IMG/VR virus record: IMGVR_UViG_3300021792_000015
Span: 1-24,932 of that record
Source of the DNA: a virus
Direction: 5' to 3' (one strand)
DNA length: 24,932 bases
The position numbers were made by a program, and so were the translations under genes. The notes under the pieces were generated by a model. That model did not search any database. It saw only the letters and a program-made list of their open reading frames with translations, and had not been told where the DNA came from. Below, in pieces: positions 3,458 through 22,586 of the stretch (position 1 is the stretch's first letter; every line of letters begins with the position of its first letter).

Positions 3458-4276
3458 TTAAAAACTAAAGAATTTTTCCGCATCTCGTTGTTTGGATATT
3501 ATCGAACCATATCCCAATGCATCAAAGAAATCCTGTAATTTGCCCTCTAATTCATGTTCAAACAATCGGTCTCTATCTGCATACTGTTCCAAGAAATCTA
3601 ATATTTCCGGTGGGTCTAAATATCCGGTGAATGCCAATGAGTCAATCCCAATTGGATTAGTTTTCAAATATACCCACTTTATTTTATCTCCACCCTTTAC
3701 CGGCATATATCTGTATGGTACTTTCAAAAATTGTAACAAATCATTATACCTAATTGCCGCCTTTACGTGTGCCGGTGTACCACCCATTACATGGAATAAT
3801 TCTCTATCGCCCATCATGTACTTATTCAAATCCTTTACGGCCGTGTTCTTTGATACATCAACCAATGGTAGTGAATAAATGTTTTTCTTGAAATCCATTA
3901 CATAATCACTAATCTCACGTTCGGTTTTATCATCCAAAATGTCAATTAACACTTGTTTCATTACCTTTTGAAATGCCGTTGGGAATGATGAACGTTTTAC
4001 ATCCAACCCTTTAACATCAAGTTTATTCACAGCAACACCGTTATCCGATAAAATCCACTGTGCATATCGTTTTTTAGCAACCCAAAAACCGGATTTAGCA
4101 ACGTACTCCTTTTTAATCTCAAATCTATGACTACCTCGAATGTTAAAAAATCTTACAGCCATCACATCATAGAACGAGTTTAAATAATCTTGACTTTCTT
4201 GTGCAATCTCGTTTACAATATCAACCAACTCCGTTTCCGTTTTCTCGGTTCTCCAATTAGGATATCGAACATCCAT
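3458..4276 (-). CDS. 43: DNA polymerase family B, C-terminal fragment (out of frame with its own motif C)
   Basis: Palm/thumb part of a T4 gp43-like replicative polymerase. Recognisable sections are the KKRY motif region (GFWVAKKRYAQWI near residue 67), KGLDVKRSSFP, GTPAHVKAAIRYND, the thumb, and a hydrophobic C-terminal tail (DAEKFFSF) like the clamp-binding tail of RB69/T4 polymerase. The first ATG is at 4276, but homology continues upstream: in this same frame 4277-4306 reads DSVFFSATPI, the second half of the catalytic YIDTDSVFF motif. The first half (NIYIDT) lies just upstream in another frame, separated by five bases TGACA. A protein starting at 4276 would lack catalytic motif C entirely. 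So either recoding joins the frames, or the gene is broken, or the sequence has an assembly error here. Confidence 0.85.
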   Translation of the reverse strand: MDVRYPNWRTEKTETELVDIVNEIAQESQDYLNSFYDVMAVRFFNIRGSHRFEIKKEYVAKSGFWVAKKRYAQWILSDNGVAVNKLDVKGLDVKRSSFPTAFQKVMKQVLIDILDDKTEREISDYVMDFKKNIYSLPLVDVSKNTAVKDLNKYMMGDRELFHVMGGTPAHVKAAIRYNDLLQFLKVPYRYMPVKGGDKIKWVYLKTNPIGIDSLAFTGYLDPPEILDFLEQYADRDRLFEHELEGKLQDFFDALGYGSIISKQRDAEKFFSF

Positions 4277-4398: not shown

Positions 4399-6165
4399 TT
4401 ATATAAGGTCGTCTCCCTCTTGTAATTCATTTCCGATTATATTCATCTGAACCCCATTTCGGATTACCATGACTGGTTGATTTGGAAATATCTCACGGTA
4501 TGTTCCATCTTCCATTTCCACCTTTACAGGAGAACCTCCGATAATCTGAACATATCTTTTATTCAACATATCTGCCGTTGATTTGATAACTACTTGTCCA
4601 ACCGCTGTAATTGCACCTGCATTATCCAAATCGTATAAACGGAAAGATTTTAATCCAAGAACTCCATAAAATGAATTTAATAACACTTTCTGAATTTTCT
4701 GTCGTTGGTTGTAGAAATTATACTGTGATTCATCCCCGGCATCAGCGAACTCTTTTGCCTTCTTCCTAAATTCCACACGTTTATCGAACCACTCACTCAA
4801 TATTTCAGGAATAATACCAACTTTATTTTGAGAATAAATAACTCCATTGGATGCTATTGCGTAATTCTCTTCTTCCAACATCTTCTTTAGGTTTTGATTT
4901 GAAATCTCACCACCACTCCGTACTTTCCAATTTTTATCCACGGCTTTAACATAATCCAAATAATCCCAATCCTCAATCAAATCAACCTTGGTTTCAGGAG
5001 AAATGTTTAATGACATAATAATACTAGGATATAGTGATGTTAAGTCCAAATCATAAATCCACTCATATTTTCCTACAATTGGTGATTTTACATAAGCCCC
5101 CGTAAATCCGACTTTACCATTAGAGTTTTCATCATTTTTAGGTTTCTTTTTCTTCTTCTTACTAGGTGCAATCAAATTCTTTCTACGTAAGTGTGTCAAC
5201 ATCGCCCCCTCTAGGTAGATAGATGAAAATTTCCAATCATCATACCCAATGTGACCTATGTGACAAGTACCTCGTGCTAATGAAATCAACTGTAATTTAA
5301 TATCTAAATCAACTACTAACTCAACATCAACCAAGTTATATTCGATGAATTTCTTTATATCTGTTCTGAATAAATCATCCAAATTTCCGTCATACTCAAT
5401 TTTACCTCTTCCCAATTCTTTGGTTGCTACCGTATCCAATCTGTAATTTGGTAGTTCTCCAAATGTGAACTTTTTATAAAGTAAAATATAATCCATCGAA
5501 GCAATACCAGCGATTTGATAAGTTTCATCCCGCTCTTTGTAGTTTACAATACCGATAGGTGATAATGAACTTGCATAATCTTTACCGAATAAATTAACCA
5601 ATCTATTGTAAAGATAAGGTATATCGAAAAAATCTATATTCCAACCCGTTACAATATCAATCCCCAAACGTTGCCACTCATCCACGAAATAACGTAACAT
5701 ATCCTTTTCGTTAATGAATGGTATCACTGTGGTTTTGTTATGTTGGGTAACTTCCATAGTTCCCTCTTTATCCAAAACTAAAACTACATAATCACCTTGT
5801 TTTGTTGTATGATAACCGATTGCGGTAATTTCATTTTCCGATACTTTGGTGTCCGGTAATCCAGTCTCCATTTCAACCTCAATGTCAAATGTGAAAATAT
5901 TTAAATCTCCACCTGGCAAATCGCTATCAGGATACATATCAATTAATGTTCGTGTAATTGGTGGTACATCCTTTTCAAATAAGGTTTCATCATTTCTATC
6001 AAAATTAGCTACCTTTGTGTACCTATCACCGTAAATTGATAAAATCTCACCGTTTTGACTTGGTTCGTATGCATAATCCGAATATGGAAATGACATATAT
6101 CCCCGTACATCATCCCATAAGTGGATTTTATTACTTCTCCGGTCGTAATATGTGTTTGTGTACAT
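4399..6165 (-). CDS. 43: DNA polymerase family B, N-terminal fragment with intein-like tail
   Basis: Exonuclease, palm and fingers of a gp43-like replicative polymerase, 588 residues. The 3'-5' proofreading site is intact: Exo I FDIEVE (D94, E96), Exo II NIDFFD (N176, D181), Exo III YNLVD (Y276, D280). Polymerase motif A is DLTSLYPSII (D374) and motif B is QKVLLNSFYG (K493, N497). After NKRYVQIIGG (residue 544) the homology stops. The last 44 residues (SPVKVEMEDG... to GNELQEGDDLI) do not fit a polymerase but resemble the block-B end of an N-terminal split intein (ED G, PNQPV in place of TPNHPV, ELQEGD). Block A with its catalytic Cys/Ser is not visible. A Lys-rich insert (SKKKKKKPK, 335-343) lies just before the palm. 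A promoter with boxes at 6192-6223 drives it. Confidence 0.9.
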   Translation of the reverse strand: MYTNTYYDRRSNKIHLWDDVRGYMSFPYSDYAYEPSQNGEILSIYGDRYTKVANFDRNDETLFEKDVPPITRTLIDMYPDSDLPGGDLNIFTFDIEVEMETGLPDTKVSENEITAIGYHTTKQGDYVVLVLDKEGTMEVTQHNKTTVIPFINEKDMLRYFVDEWQRLGIDIVTGWNIDFFDIPYLYNRLVNLFGKDYASSLSPIGIVNYKERDETYQIAGIASMDYILLYKKFTFGELPNYRLDTVATKELGRGKIEYDGNLDDLFRTDIKKFIEYNLVDVELVVDLDIKLQLISLARGTCHIGHIGYDDWKFSSIYLEGAMLTHLRRKNLIAPSKKKKKKPKNDENSNGKVGFTGAYVKSPIVGKYEWIYDLDLTSLYPSIIMSLNISPETKVDLIEDWDYLDYVKAVDKNWKVRSGGEISNQNLKKMLEEENYAIASNGVIYSQNKVGIIPEILSEWFDKRVEFRKKAKEFADAGDESQYNFYNQRQKIQKVLLNSFYGVLGLKSFRLYDLDNAGAITAVGQVVIKSTADMLNKRYVQIIGGSPVKVEMEDGTYREIFPNQPVMVIRNGVQMNIIGNELQEGDDLI

Positions 6166-18387: not shown

Positions 18388-18630
18388 TTAATCCACCGTA
18401 TCCAATTGGTTTTCTTTATACACCCCATGTAATATGATGTCGGTTTCGTCATCCACAACATACAAACACACAATACCACTGTCGGAAAAATACTCATTGT
18501 TTGTATATCTCACGATGTAATCGAGTGCATCACCATAATTTGTAAATCTCTGTGAACTATCAATTTCATTTCTTAGTATGTCATCATAGGTTGAACATAA
18601 CCCACGAGTACCATAAACTCTAATTTTCAT
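18388..18630 (-). CDS. Small protein, 80 aa, paralogue of the 70-aa protein
   Basis: It begins MKIRVYGTRGLCSTYDDIL, nearly the same as MKIKIYATDDYCSTYEEVI of the 70-aa protein at 18689-18901. Both then carry an acidic helix (DALDYIVRYTNNEYF / GGLKQFVQLVNDEII) and a strand ending in (LYVVDDET / VYLVDEEK). This suggests a duplicated small alpha/beta domain with a conserved Cys-Ser-Thr-Tyr. Function unknown. It has its own promoter and a leader with a seven-codon ORF that ends on its ATG. Confidence 0.75.
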   Translation of the reverse strand: MKIRVYGTRGLCSTYDDILRNEIDSSQRFTNYGDALDYIVRYTNNEYFSDSGIVCLYVVDDETDIILHGVYKENQLDTVD

Positions 18631-18650
18631 AACTCAATCGTTTTAATCAT
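18627..18650 (-). promoter_or_regulatory. Seven-codon upstream ORF (MIKTIEL) coupled to the 80-aa gene
   Basis: ATG at 18648-18650 opens MIKTIEL and stops at TGA overlapping the next ATG (ATGA). The same peptide, with two synonymous third-base differences, precedes the 100-aa gene at 22524. Confidence 0.5.
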
Positions 18651-18660
18651 TATTACAGTA

Positions 18661-18692
18661 CAAATATACGAATAATAATTTTAATATCCTAA
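18661..18692 (-). promoter_or_regulatory. Promoter for the 80-aa/65-aa/Nmad1 unit
   Basis: TTAG, 20 nt, TATATTTG on the minus strand. The -33 box covers the TAG stop of the 70-aa gene. Confidence 0.65.
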
Positions 18693-18901
18693 TTTAATAT
18701 TACTTTTTTTTCTTCATCCACAAGATAAACGAAATGCACCGGTGATGAAATTATTTCATCATTAACTAGTTGAACAAATTGTTTTAATCCACCCATTTCA
18801 TTATCATCACATTCAATTGGGTCAATACCGTCTACTCGGTTTTCAATAACTTCCTCATACGTTGAGCAATAATCGTCTGTAGCATATATTTTAATTTTCA
18901 T
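18689..18901 (-). CDS. Small protein, 70 aa, paralogue of the 80-aa protein
   Basis: A 70-residue acidic protein starting MKIKIYATDDYCSTYEEVI, with the same CSTY motif and alpha/beta plan as the 80-aa protein. It is the last gene of the radical SAM unit, three bases after the 43-aa peptide stop. Whether it belongs to that system or simply lies downstream cannot be decided; its duplicate outside the unit argues for an independent role. Confidence 0.7.
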   Translation of the reverse strand: MKIKIYATDDYCSTYEEVIENRVDGIDPIECDDNEMGGLKQFVQLVNDEIISSPVHFVYLVDEEKKVILN

Positions 18902-18904
18902 AAT

Positions 18905-19036
18905 TTATTCAGTTTCAGTTATTATTGATAATTGACCACATGCGGCCCCATTTTTAATTTCAGATTCAGTAGCGATTGCTACTGCGTAATCGTACCCAGC
19001 ATCTTCCAATTGTTGTTTAATTTCGTCTGTAATCAT
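18905..19036 (-). CDS. 43-aa Cys-containing peptide next to a radical SAM gene
   Basis: An ATG ORF of 43 codons that starts 12 nt after the radical SAM stop codon. It has an acidic amphipathic first half (MITDEIKQQLEDAGYDYAVA) and ends with a small-residue segment (IKNGAACGQLSIITETE) holding the only Cys. Size, acidic front half, Gly-Ala-Cys segment and position suit a peptide substrate of the adjacent enzyme, but there is no recognised leader family and it could be an unrelated phage microprotein. Confidence 0.6.
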   Translation of the reverse strand: MITDEIKQQLEDAGYDYAVAIATESEIKNGAACGQLSIITETE

Positions 19037-19048
19037 AATTTCTATTTT

Positions 19049-19921
19049 TTATTTAATTTCAATTCCGTTAAATCCTTTTCTTAATGTTTCACCATCAAAC
19101 ACAAATGTTTCTGAACTAGTTGGTTTTAAAACGTGTCGATGATATAGTTTCAGTGTGGAAATATCACGTAATATATAAATGTAGTTGTTACATTTACACA
19201 CATCATTAAATTTCCATTCCTTTATTACATTCAACCTATCCGATGATAAATCATCCACGGTCAAATCAATCATACGTTCCTTACTATATTGATTTATTCC
19301 CATTAACCCAACAAACCCAACATCACGTATTTCAATCTCTCCACAAAATTCCAAATATTTCTCCATTTCTTCCGGTGTGTCGATGTATCCTTTTATAACA
19401 TTACATGAAATGTGAAATACCCCAGGATTATCAATTGACATCCGTTTTAATGATTCATTGGATATTGTATCTGTTCTAAATATTTCATTATTAATTTCAT
19501 GGTCGTAATGATGTCTACTAACAGAAATACTGTCAAATATACGAATTTTATCATCAATTTCCAAATTTTCTAACTGAAATCCGTTCGTATTCATCACTAA
19601 AAATGAGTCGGGAGAAATCTCCTTAATAATATCAATGATTTTATATAAAACATCCAAATTCAACGTTGGTTCTCCACCGGTTATTGAAATTTTACGTATT
19701 TCGAGTTGAGTAACCATTTTCGATAAATAATTTCTAAATTTATCAAAATTGAATTTTATTCCGTTGGTTTTATATTCACAGAATCCACAATCTGCATTAC
19801 ACCCATTTAACTGAATGTATAAATTGATGTATGGTGCCTCAACCTTACTCGGTGGTAGATTATCCAATGAACAATAATAATCCCTAAGTTGAACTTTACT
19901 ATTTAAAATATCTACTAACAT
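19049..19921 (-). CDS. Radical SAM enzyme, MoaA/QueE-like
   Basis: A radical SAM protein, 290 residues from the chosen ATG. The cluster motif is CNADCGFC (C41, C45, C48), the SAM-binding GGEP is at 82-85 (SITGGEPTLN), and MNTNG and SRHHYDHEINNEIFR follow in the barrel. Four to five further Cys lie outside, including a CKC near the C-terminus, but not the seven-Cys SPASM pattern. I placed the start at MLVDIL (19921) because it overlaps the stop of the preceding gene as ATGTTAG; a start nine codons upstream would overlap more. Substrate unknown; no QueC, QueD or MoaC partners are present. Its place after two Cys-ended small proteins suggests it may modify them or the peptide downstream. Confidence 0.82.
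   Translation of the reverse strand: MLVDILNSKVQLRDYYCSLDNLPPSKVEAPYINLYIQLNGCNADCGFCEYKTNGIKFNFDKFRNYLSKMVTQLEIRKISITGGEPTLNLDVLYKIIDIIKEISPDSFLVMNTNGFQLENLEIDDKIRIFDSISVSRHHYDHEINNEIFRTDTISNESLKRMSIDNPGVFHISCNVIKGYIDTPEEMEKYLEFCGEIEIRDVGFVGLMGINQYSKERMIDLTVDDLSSDRLNVIKEWKFNDVCKCNNYIYILRDISTLKLYHRHVLKPTSSETFVFDGETLRKGFNGIEIK
19534..19565 (-). promoter_or_regulatory. Promoter-like sequence inside the radical SAM gene
   Basis: TTTG, 20 nt, TATATTTG, a perfect consensus, lies in the coding sequence for LENLEIDDKIRIFDS. If active it would express the 43-aa and 70-aa genes separately from the enzymes. It could be chance in an AT-rich gene. Confidence 0.35.
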
Positions 19922-20250
19922 GAACTTCGGACGGTATATGATGAACAACTACATGGATCTCCATAACTCATAGTATGTGTCGAATTTACCAACATCGACC
20001 TAGATTCGGTAATTTCAGTTTCCAATCCCCTTAATTCACGAGTGAGTTCCTCAATTTTTGTTTTAAGTACATCAACCTGCGTTTCAACTTCTTTTGATTT
20101 TTGAAATTCGACCAACGTATCCCGTGAAATTTGATTAGTTTGTACAAGTGATGTGATTGCCAATGAAACGAAGTCGTGTATATCCTTTGTTCCGTCGGGG
20201 TCCCAAAAGTTGTAAAAATTATTCAATAAAATAAATTCTCTATTATTCAT
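19915..20250 (-). CDS. Small Cys-ended protein P2 (111 aa)
   Basis: The second of two tandem paralogues. Residues 1-48 form a conserved domain (EFILLNNFYNFWDPDGTK, DFVSLAITSLVQTNQIS) about half identical to P1. Residues ~49-85 are a coiled coil (EVETQVDVLKTKIEELTREL). The tail differs from P1: it is Ser/Tyr-rich with C100, C102 and the C-terminal C111 (SYGDPCSCSSYTVRSSC). A constant front with a variable Cys-containing end is the layout of ribosomally made modified peptides, though the coiled coil is unusual for those. It is coupled by overlap to the downstream radical SAM gene. Confidence 0.75.
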   Translation of the reverse strand: MNNREFILLNNFYNFWDPDGTKDIHDFVSLAITSLVQTNQISRDTLVEFQKSKEVETQVDVLKTKIEELTRELRGLETEITESRSMLVNSTHTMSYGDPCSCSSYTVRSSC

Positions 20251-20267
20251 AACTAAATTTTAATGGT

Positions 20268-20606
20268 TTAACATGGAGATTTCGTAAATGGACTTGTTAC
20301 CTTTGGTACATAAGTTTCATCAGTCGTAACCTCACCCGAACTCGTAACTTTTACAATTGATTTCGGTAGTGATTCAATTAATTTCTTTTTAGTGATTTCC
20401 AACCTACCGATTTCTTTATTTATCGAACGAATTTTCTCTCCAATTTTCTTTAACTCGTAATATTCATCCAATACCGCCTGTGTAATTTGTTCGGTTTCTA
20501 CAAATGATGATTTTGCCAATTTTACATAATCATCTAGTTTTTTGGTTCCCGATAAATTCCAAAACTTATAAAAGTTTTCTAATAATATAAATTCGTTTGA
20601 AGTCAT
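20268..20606 (-). CDS. Small Cys-ended protein P1 (112 aa)
   Basis: The first paralogue, starting 7 nt after the RlmN-like gene. The conserved front is EFILLENFYKFWNLSGTK and YVKLAKSSFVETEQIT, followed by a basic coiled coil (ELKKIGEKIRSINKEIGRLE, then ITKKKL) and a Thr/Ser/Pro-rich tail whose last residue is its only Cys (TSPFTKSPC). No signal peptide, metal site or known family is evident. Seventeen bases separate it from P2. Confidence 0.75.
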   Translation of the reverse strand: MTSNEFILLENFYKFWNLSGTKKLDDYVKLAKSSFVETEQITQAVLDEYYELKKIGEKIRSINKEIGRLEITKKKLIESLPKSIVKVTSSGEVTTDETYVPKVTSPFTKSPC

Positions 20607-20613
20607 ACTCGAT

Positions 20614-21396
20614 TTAAACTAAATTAACACCCTCAATTATACCCTTACCCAAATTATTCGATTCCGAAACATCATTTGGATTTATAGGACTGATTTTCAC
20701 AAAGAAATGTTCTTTCGGGAAATATCTCTTCAACCCATCAATATCAAAATCCGATTGGTCTACCAATGTTAAATTGATAGTTGTTTTTAAATTACTCTCT
20801 GTACGGATTTTACTCAACTCTTCCATTGAAGCGGTTCTACGATATGGTATTAACCAATGTCTTGCATCATCATCAAAACTATGAATTGATAACTGTAAGG
20901 TGATGTTACCCTTAATCCAAGAATAATCCGAACCCTTTATACCAACGGTTGAAACGTAATGATGTGTATTTGGATATTTTGCAGATATGATTTGGATAGC
21001 CTCCTTTACATTTTCAATATTCAAAAACGGTTCACCCATTCTAGTATAATTAATTTTAAATTCTTTTGAGTTTTTCGGGTCAAACCCATCACGTTCAATC
21101 ATAAATTCAACTTGGTCAACAATTTCTTGTGCCGTTAAATTACGTGAACGTTTCATTGTCCCGGTTGCACAGAACTTACATCCAACAGGACAACCACTCA
21201 TAACAGAAACACCAATCATCCAACGTTCCGAACGAGAACCCAAATCGTCAGTTTCTAAAAAGTTTTGATGTCTACCTATTGCATCACGTGTATAAAATGG
21301 TAAATAAGTTGATGTTGTTTCAATTAACATACCATCATCCAATTTTATGGAAAATACACTTCCATTTGAAAAATCTTTACTTCTTTCTATTTTCAT
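20614..21396 (-). CDS. RlmN/Cfr-like radical SAM protein lacking both methyl-transfer cysteines
   Basis: A 260-residue radical SAM protein. Cluster motif SGCPVGCKFCATG (C69, C73, C76), RNLTAQEIVDQVEF (85-98) and YTRMGEPFLNIENV (117-130) closely follow RlmN (SQVGCAL-CSFCSTG, RNLTAAEI, MGMGEPLLN). It has no N-terminal RlmN domain and stops at ISPINPN, before the position of catalytic Cys355 of E. coli RlmN. The residue matching Cys118 is Gly62. The three cluster Cys are the only Cys in the protein. It therefore should not work as an RNA methyl synthase by the known RlmN/Cfr mechanism and probably does another radical reaction. It heads the cassette, from the promoter at 21469-21500. Confidence 0.85.
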   Translation of the reverse strand: MKIERSKDFSNGSVFSIKLDDGMLIETTSTYLPFYTRDAIGRHQNFLETDDLGSRSERWMIGVSVMSGCPVGCKFCATGTMKRSRNLTAQEIVDQVEFMIERDGFDPKNSKEFKINYTRMGEPFLNIENVKEAIQIISAKYPNTHHYVSTVGIKGSDYSWIKGNITLQLSIHSFDDDARHWLIPYRRTASMEELSKIRTESNLKTTINLTLVDQSDFDIDGLKRYFPKEHFFVKISPINPNDVSESNNLGKGIIEGVNLV

Positions 21397-21398
21397 AA

Positions 21399-21458
21399 CT
21401 AATTTATTTTATTTTTTCCAACCCACACCAAATAAATGGTTATCGGAGTTTTAATCAT
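21399..21458 (-). promoter_or_regulatory. 19-codon upstream ORF (MIKTPIT...) before the radical SAM cassette
   Basis: It opens with the same MIKT start and leader as the two seven-codon ORFs, runs 19 codons and stops at TAG two bases before the ATG of the RlmN-like gene. Confidence 0.4.
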
Positions 21459-21468
21459 TATTATAGTA

Positions 21469-21500
21469 CAAATATACAAAAAGAAAACGAGAAAACCAAA
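21469..21500 (-). promoter_or_regulatory. Promoter for the radical SAM cassette
   Basis: TTTG, 20 nt, TATATTTG on the minus strand, with the TTTG box in the loop of the preceding terminator hairpin. About 65 nt of leader follow to the first gene. Confidence 0.8.
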
Positions 21501-21528: not shown

Positions 21529-22164
21529 TTATTTCCGATTATATTCCTTTAGGATTTCTGAACAACTTCGTATTTCCGGAATTGATAATTCTCTCAATGT
21601 GATTTCACGCTGAAGTGATTCAAATACAAATGGTCTCCCATTCACCGTACTATAAAACTCACCGGTCTTACTATACATTGGTTTTCCCAATTTCACTTTT
21701 ACTTGCATCTTCCCAAATCCAGGATAACCGTTCGGGCAAGTATTAGTTGATACCAACCAATAGTTGATACCCGGCTTGCTATATGTAATCGAGTCTTGTT
21801 CAAAATACTTTCCTAACTCAACCAAATCTTTATATAAGTTTCCACTATCCTTTATGTCCACTACAATGAATGCCGTTTCCTTAACAGGTCTTGCATCTTT
21901 GGTACCATAATTCTCAATATATGTACCCTTAACTTTAGTAACACCATATCCCTTTGCCAATAATAAACTTTTCAGTTTGGAATTTCGTTTGACATTTTCA
22001 GATTTAGAATATTTTTCACCATCACCACAGTCGGGTGCGTATCTTGATGCTGAAATTGTCCCCGAGTCATGTTTTTTCACATGTGAACCTATCCTTGATA
22101 ACGATGATTCCTTAATCGAATCACCAACAATTGACTTTGCTATTTTATATAAACTCATATCCAT
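21529..22164 (-). CDS. Conserved phage protein of unknown function (211 aa)
   Basis: The N-terminal helix (MSLYKIAKSIVGDSIKESSL) is followed by a core SGTISASRYAPD, SENVKRNSKLKSLLLAKGYG, VTKVKGTYIENYG, KETAFIVVDIKDSG and later YFEQDSITY, NYWLVSTNTCPNGYPGFG and GRPFVFES. I recall proteins with the same order (TISA-RGER---N--K-KEL---L---GYSVT-VKG-YIE-FG, E-SF-V, QDS, LYGTN, FP-FG) in many phages and bacteria; none has a proven activity that I know of. The gene shares a unit with the 100-aa protein. Confidence 0.7.
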   Translation of the reverse strand: MDMSLYKIAKSIVGDSIKESSLSRIGSHVKKHDSGTISASRYAPDCGDGEKYSKSENVKRNSKLKSLLLAKGYGVTKVKGTYIENYGTKDARPVKETAFIVVDIKDSGNLYKDLVELGKYFEQDSITYSKPGINYWLVSTNTCPNGYPGFGKMQVKVKLGKPMYSKTGEFYSTVNGRPFVFESLQREITLRELSIPEIRSCSEILKEYNRK

Positions 22165-22524: not shown

Positions 22525-22544
22525 AACTCTATTGTTTTAATCAT
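22521..22544 (-). promoter_or_regulatory. Seven-codon upstream ORF (MIKTIEL) coupled to the 100-aa gene
   Basis: ATG at 22542-22544 opens MIKTIEL and stops at a TGA overlapping the downstream ATG (ATGA). It is identical in peptide to the one at 18627-18650. Confidence 0.5.
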
Positions 22545-22554
22545 TATTACAGTA

Positions 22555-22586
22555 CAAATATAATAATAAAAATCGAGAAAACCAAA
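22555..22586 (-). promoter_or_regulatory. Promoter for the 100-aa/211-aa unit
   Basis: TTTG, 20 nt, TATATTTG on the minus strand, with TTTG in the loop of the preceding hairpin. Confidence 0.8.

Follow-up and report, generated by a model that had tools for sequence, protein, structure and literature searches.

The window analysed here, a 24,932-nucleotide stretch of viral DNA (IMG/VR virus record IMGVR_UViG_3300021792_000015, positions 1 to 24,932; a 24.9-kb record), carries a five-gene operon on its minus strand. From its sequence, we read this operon as a split RlmN-type radical S-adenosylmethionine (SAM) enzyme of phages that has lost the cysteine corresponding to C118 of RlmN, together with an accessory module. 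We give a probability of about 0.82 to this two-module reading. The first module would be an RlmN/Cfr-type enzyme divided between a radical SAM protein (the core) and a peptide of 43 amino acids (aa), PEP, acting as the methyl carrier in trans, and the second would consist of another radical SAM enzyme (rSAM2) and two small proteins with cysteine-ended tails (P1 and P2). An earlier note on this DNA had correctly described the five genes, their positions and their spacing, with gaps of 7 and 17 nt, an ATGTTAG overlap coupling P2 to rSAM2, and a gap of 12 nt. The genes and their key codons are as follows.

20614-21396, minus strand: core, split RlmN-like radical SAM enzyme, 260 aa (TIGR00048, E-value 2.1e-21; 86 non-redundant relatives)
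21211-21213, minus strand: codon of core Gly62, aligned with the position of Escherichia coli RlmN C118, the resolving cysteine
21169-21192, minus strand: 4Fe-4S cluster motif CPVGCKFC of the core, its cluster cysteines invariant in core alignments
20268-20606, minus strand: P1, 112 aa, with a helical front, a coiled coil and a tail ending in SPC (open reading frame, ORF; family model match)
19915-20250, minus strand: P2, 111 aa, paralogue of P1, with the tail GDPCSCSSYTVRSSC and the C-terminal end CSCSSYTVRSSC (ORF; paralogy; recurring tail motif)
19049-19921, minus strand: rSAM2, second radical SAM enzyme, 290 aa from the ATG (PF04055, E-value 1e-11; alignment; overlap with P2)
18905-19036, minus strand: PEP, 43 aa, detached RlmN C-terminus with NGAACGQL and a single cysteine (hhalign to RlmN; viral loci; pairing with the core)
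18938-18940, minus strand: codon of PEP Cys33, equivalent to E. coli RlmN C355, a cysteine invariant in all aligned PEPs

The sequence of PEP (MITDEIKQQLEDAGYDYAVAIATESEIKNGAACGQLSIITETE) includes NGAACGQL, the motif of the methyl-carrier cysteine of RlmN, in which AACGQL holds the methyl-carrying C355. The core ends in ...EGVNLV, short of this segment. Both features had been missed in the earlier note. A profile of the PEP family aligned to positions 308-344 of the 358 positions of canonical RlmN (hhalign, P 7.7e-6), with a score of 39 against a maximum of 21.5 among 100 column-shuffled controls, and TIGR00048 aligned across the joined core and PEP up to position 342 of 355. No database family was matched by PEP itself. 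Purifying selection acts on the PEP gene as it does on the enzyme gene (median non-synonymous, pN, and synonymous, pS, values of 0.15 and 0.76, respectively, for 170 pairs), and the peptide is conserved as strongly as the core, over its whole length and with no variable core region. Judged on these grounds, the 43-aa peptide is a detached catalytic segment of the first enzyme and not the precursor of a ribosomally synthesized and post-translationally modified peptide (RiPP).

The predicted structure was consistent with this identity. The chain modelled was that of locus L021, in which core and PEP were joined by reading through one stop codon. The model had a predicted template modelling score (pTM) of 0.85 and a predicted local distance difference test score (pLDDT) of about 87 for the PEP helix and about 74 for the PEP strand. 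It matched residues 79-362 of E. coli RlmN with a Z-score of 25.4 and a root-mean-square deviation of 2.5 over 253 residues; the match with Cfr was lower (Z 18.8), and other radical SAM enzymes gave values of about 13.8 and below. The extent of the match to RlmN indicates that core and PEP together correspond to RlmN minus its first 78 residues.

The core retains a radical SAM domain (PF04055) with the RlmN fold and the invariant CxxxCxxC cluster cysteines, and has no methyl-carrier cysteine on its own chain. Its score with TIGR00048, 76 bits, does not reach the RlmN equivalog threshold (290). The position of C118 is occupied by glycine in 84 of 84 split cores, by cysteine in 12 of 12 canonical RlmN proteins (taken from genomes carrying the core-PEP pair or its fused relatives) and by threonine in the nearest fused forms. 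No cysteine outside the cluster is invariant in the core alignment. In all but one of the 84 split cores (83/84), the canonical MGMGEP is replaced by TRMGEP, and the N-terminal RNA-binding region of RlmN is absent from the split clade, the structural match beginning at RlmN residue 79. In the phylogenetic tree, canonical RlmN is followed by fused phage forms with C118 (L038-L040), then by the fused forms with threonine (Versailles phage L037, L226 and L227) and finally by the split clade, which is monophyletic with a support of 0.87. This order implies that the loss of C118 preceded the splitting of the gene. Where chromosomal copies occur, the host genome usually carries a canonical RlmN with C118 as well.

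The pairing of core and PEP recurs across viruses. A scan of viral sequences with the core as query yielded 29 loci, almost all with a separate gene for an AACGQL protein of 39-54 aa, and a scan with the PEP alignment alone yielded 77 loci, with a core within 5 kb in 71. Among 86 non-redundant cores, from viral loci and genome contigs, 82 have a separate PEP gene, two are natural single-chain fusions, and two (L017 and L213) have no PEP in the short available sequence, the L017 contig stopping soon after the core. The C-termini of two natural single-chain relatives, L226 and L227, are collinear with PEP. Isolated phages with both genes include the crAss-like Kehishuvirus 'tikkala', Moorella phage MTATph1, Vibrio phage D479, Pectobacterium phage Arno162 and Yersinia phage P778. 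The pairing is kept while the order of the two genes varies: PEP mostly lies downstream of the core, but it is sometimes more than 1 kb away, beyond inserted genes, and in four loci it precedes the core. In Vibrio phage D479 (L034:4800-5081), a single ORF contains two AACGQM PEP units in tandem. Read-through or frameshifting was rejected as a general route to a fused product, because PEP can be this distant, can be in a different frame or can precede the core; an intron or intein was likewise rejected as a general account, because about half of the pairs are separated by 2-66 nt, with their own stop and start.

In about 18 loci, a different radical SAM enzyme and a small methyltransferase-like protein are encoded between core and PEP; the inserted enzyme has a Cx5CxxC-type spacing (examples are L018:6799-7967, L009, L015 and L209). 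Genes for GIY-YIG/HNH-type (homing-type) endonucleases lie near or between core and PEP in seven loci (L020, L022, L047, L051, L055, L192 and L217). Locus L186 (27 kb) has a PEP and no core, the core being the only partner sought and the record possibly incomplete. Among the matches listed in a search of plasmids, there were only standard RlmN/Cfr-like proteins.

The second module has a distribution of its own. The rSAM2 protein, for which an in-frame TTG at 19948 is a possible alternative start, is related to MoaA, viperin and HxsC, and has a conserved C-terminal CxC motif. Its identification as QueE, viperin or MoaA was rejected, the matches being partial and below cut-off (42 bits for the prokaryotic viperin model NF038283, cut-off 180); no NCBIfam model was matched above its cut-off, and no known maturase family or SPASM domain was recognized. 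P1 and P2 are paralogous (41% over 69 aa, E-value 1e-17), in agreement with their earlier description as tandem paralogues with cysteine-ended tails. A single-sequence query of viral contigs with P1 found no relatives, which were reached only via the rSAM2 loci; the corresponding query with rSAM2 gave two distant matches only, whereas a profile search provided 18 non-redundant close relatives. In all 18, an adjacent protein has cysteine as its last residue, versus 2.9% of background ORFs. These proteins have a front that is short and helical and a tail that varies, often with DPCxRGG...C, and P1/P2 homologues were not found mostly without radical SAM neighbours. Core and PEP are present in 17 of the 18 loci, a figure partly subject to ascertainment bias because every rSAM2 seed was taken from a core locus, and rSAM2 is missing from most core/PEP loci (69 of 86). 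No match to a dedicated protease or exporter family was found among the operon genes and their neighbours.

The architecture of these cysteine-ended proteins beside rSAM2 fits a substrate or precursor role. P1 and P2 are most likely substrates of rSAM2, in which the front would serve for recognition and the variable cysteine tail would be the target. The earlier suggestion that the small proteins of this operon are modification substrates is thus retained for P1/P2 with rSAM2, which form a recurrent unit, and abandoned for the 43-aa peptide. In locus L048 (4992-5984), rSAM2 and PEP share one reading frame, with an internal AAGGAG and ATG for PEP, so PEP is perhaps made both fused and free; the internal ribosome-binding site and start make this fusion weaker evidence that the two are physically linked, and in the model of the fusion the PEP strand is not firm and there is no firm docking of PEP. 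Locus L177 encodes a cysteine-tail protein (DGCSRGSASSNQRC, 3973-4182) directly upstream of the core; it lacks an rSAM2 of the close family and encodes nearby (L177:8140-8988) a second, single-chain RlmN-like protein that retains C118.

Under the two-module reading, PEP would dock on the core at the site of the RlmN C-terminus and contribute, in trans, the cysteine that carries the methyl group. As in RlmN, a first SAM would methylate the sulfur of PEP Cys33, and a second SAM would yield a 5'-deoxyadenosyl radical that generates a thiomethylene radical on Cys33, which would then attack an sp2 carbon of the substrate. As the resolving cysteine is missing, a methylated product could not leave by the RlmN route. 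Either another group would resolve the adduct or PEP would remain attached and be consumed, an option that we retain because PEP is encoded by a separate gene, forms a tandem unit in D479 and is accompanied by the universal loss of C118. In the second module, rSAM2 would modify the cysteine tails of P1 and P2; any link between the two modules would be presumptive.

Several observations weigh against this reading. The cysteine loop of the L021 model has a low pLDDT (about 58), and core and PEP were covalently joined for the prediction, which gives no independent support for docking in trans. The RlmN-like sequence of PEP is not in itself proof that PEP is methylated, and RNA methylation should not be assumed, because both C118 and the RNA-binding region have been lost. 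At least two large records, L166 (213 kb) and L183 (101 kb), both possibly incomplete, carry PEP without the core or any RlmN-like protein, and L054 has rSAM2 and a cysteine-tail protein without core or PEP.

Gene fission without a change of function, with core and PEP still acting as a multi-turnover nucleic-acid methylase (producing m2A or m8A, i.e. 2- or 8-methyladenosine) and another residue or an outside thiol replacing C118, is plausible enough to merit serious attention, although we lean against it. RlmN-like conservation has been kept in both PEP and core, their joint fold matches that of RlmN, and C355 alone suffices for the S-methylcysteine chemistry. However, class A methylases require two cysteines, and C118 in RlmN, like its counterpart in Cfr, is reported to be indispensable (PMC9692996). 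The core has no other invariant cysteine outside the cluster, its N-terminal RNA-binding region is gone, and the hosts of chromosomal copies usually already have a canonical RlmN with C118.

We consider it unlikely, but worth retaining, that PEP is a consumable tag, joined by the core via Cys-S-CH2 to a nucleobase or another sp2 carbon, with the stable conjugate as the product; by analogy, PEP would then be an expendable radical-bearing partner linked to nucleic acid or another target in the infected cell. The mutation of C118 to alanine in RlmN is, on its own, sufficient to trap a covalent protein-tRNA adduct of this kind (PMC9692996; PMC5130265), and glycine has replaced C118 in every split core. 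The small, separate PEP gene, its position upstream of the core in four loci and the two units in one ORF of D479 also suit a consumable partner. Nevertheless, PEP is conserved to the same degree as the enzyme part, and the nearest fused forms, which also lack C118, have no separately consumable PEP. A single pathway formed by all five genes, with successive action of core/PEP and rSAM2 on P1/P2, is doubtful. It would account for the single operon, for the core and PEP in 17 of 18 rSAM2 loci and for the shared reading frame in L048, but not for the 69 of 86 core/PEP loci without rSAM2, and L048 has the internal start for PEP and a model without firm docking.

The possibility that the 43-aa peptide is a RiPP precursor, with a cysteine that the core modifies to give the end product, appears distinctly improbable. 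The small ORF beside a radical SAM enzyme and the tandem repeat in D479 are as expected of a precursor, but PEP is homologous to an enzyme's own C-terminus, is conserved like the enzyme over its full length with no variable core region, has natural fused counterparts and mostly occurs without P1/P2 or rSAM2. Finally, PEP is a short ORF with no database family, but purifying selection, its presence in 77 viral loci and the persistence of the pairing despite variable gene order refute the idea that this ORF arose by chance or is what remains of a disrupted RlmN.

The two-module system resembles several known systems without coinciding with any of them. It shares with RlmN, a dual-specificity RNA methyltransferase of the class A radical SAM methylases, the radical SAM fold, CxxxCxxC, the MGEP region, the AACGQL carrier motif and the C-terminal topology (Z 25.4), but has its carrier cysteine on a separate protein of 39-54 aa, glycine at C118, no counterpart of residues 1-78, TRMGEP rather than MGMGEP, and a TIGR00048 score far under the cut-off. 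Cfr, the A2503-C8 methyltransferase, belongs to the RlmN family and uses the same two-cysteine chemistry, with C105 as the counterpart of RlmN C118, and the core matches Cfr models; the differences are the same as for RlmN, and the similarity is lower (structure Z 18.8). RlmN C118A with cross-linked tRNA (Protein Data Bank 5HR6/5HR7) similarly has no resolving cysteine and displays the chemistry expected of an enzyme lacking C118, but it is a laboratory mutant, a single chain with a full RNA-binding domain. As in radical SAM RiPP clusters, rSAM2 is always beside small proteins that begin with a helical part and end in a variable cysteine tail; unlike such clusters, the operon has no SPASM match, protease or exporter that we could find, and the C-terminal cysteine is fixed. 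Part of the radical SAM domain of rSAM2 is shared with pVip (E-value 1e-13) and MoaA (E-value 1e-11), but rSAM2 falls far under the curated cut-offs and differs in its C-terminus and gene context. The earlier statement that no phage system with this gene order has been described stands within the literature searched, in which we found neither a split RlmN nor such a cassette; subscription papers were mostly outside the coverage, and novelty is therefore provisional.

The other elements flanking the operon include repeats of a promoter-like sequence.

21453-21476, minus strand: promoter-like 24-bp element TATATTTGTACTRTAATAATGATT (TATATTTGTACTATAATAATGATT) with a Bacteroidota-type TAnnTTTG core, 5' of the first operon gene
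18645-18668 and 22539-22562, minus strand: the other two copies of this element, each of the three lying ahead of a gene group
18689-18901, minus strand: ORF of 70 aa right after PEP, ahead of the next promoter copy

The exact element occurs three times in the window, versus none expected from shuffles, and supports the single promoter previously placed ahead of the operon; it would function as such at each site, with the copy at 18645-18668 just beyond the operon end. From its position, the 70-aa ORF is possibly in the same transcript as the operon. Its product and that of 18388-18630 (minus strand) are paralogous small proteins (34% identity, E-value 1e-11) with a common CSTY motif. Directly upstream of the operon promoter is a gene for a SAM lyase-like protein (21529-22164, minus strand; PF23780, E-value 2.6e-10), an odd neighbour for SAM-dependent enzymes, which was not found near the relatives of the operon. 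The window also carries a T4-like replication set (polymerase, clamp, UvsX, single-strand binding protein, DnaB helicase and ribonucleotide reductase). The DNA polymerase is spread over two ORFs on the minus strand, 3458-4276 (C-terminal part) and 4399-6165 (N-terminal part), and is thus a second split gene in the window.

The textbook examples of methylation via a protein-bound S-methylcysteine are RlmN and Cfr, in which both catalytic cysteines are regarded as essential. A widespread phage lineage appears to keep the carrier cysteine on a separate small protein and to have dropped the second catalytic cysteine. The methyl carrier would thereby become an exchangeable part, which points to chemistry different from plain adenosine methylation, and old mechanistic questions concerning the RlmN/Cfr class would become directly testable with two small soluble proteins. 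The linked rSAM2/cysteine-tail module, a further candidate for the modification of peptides by radical chemistry in phages, appears to be undescribed.

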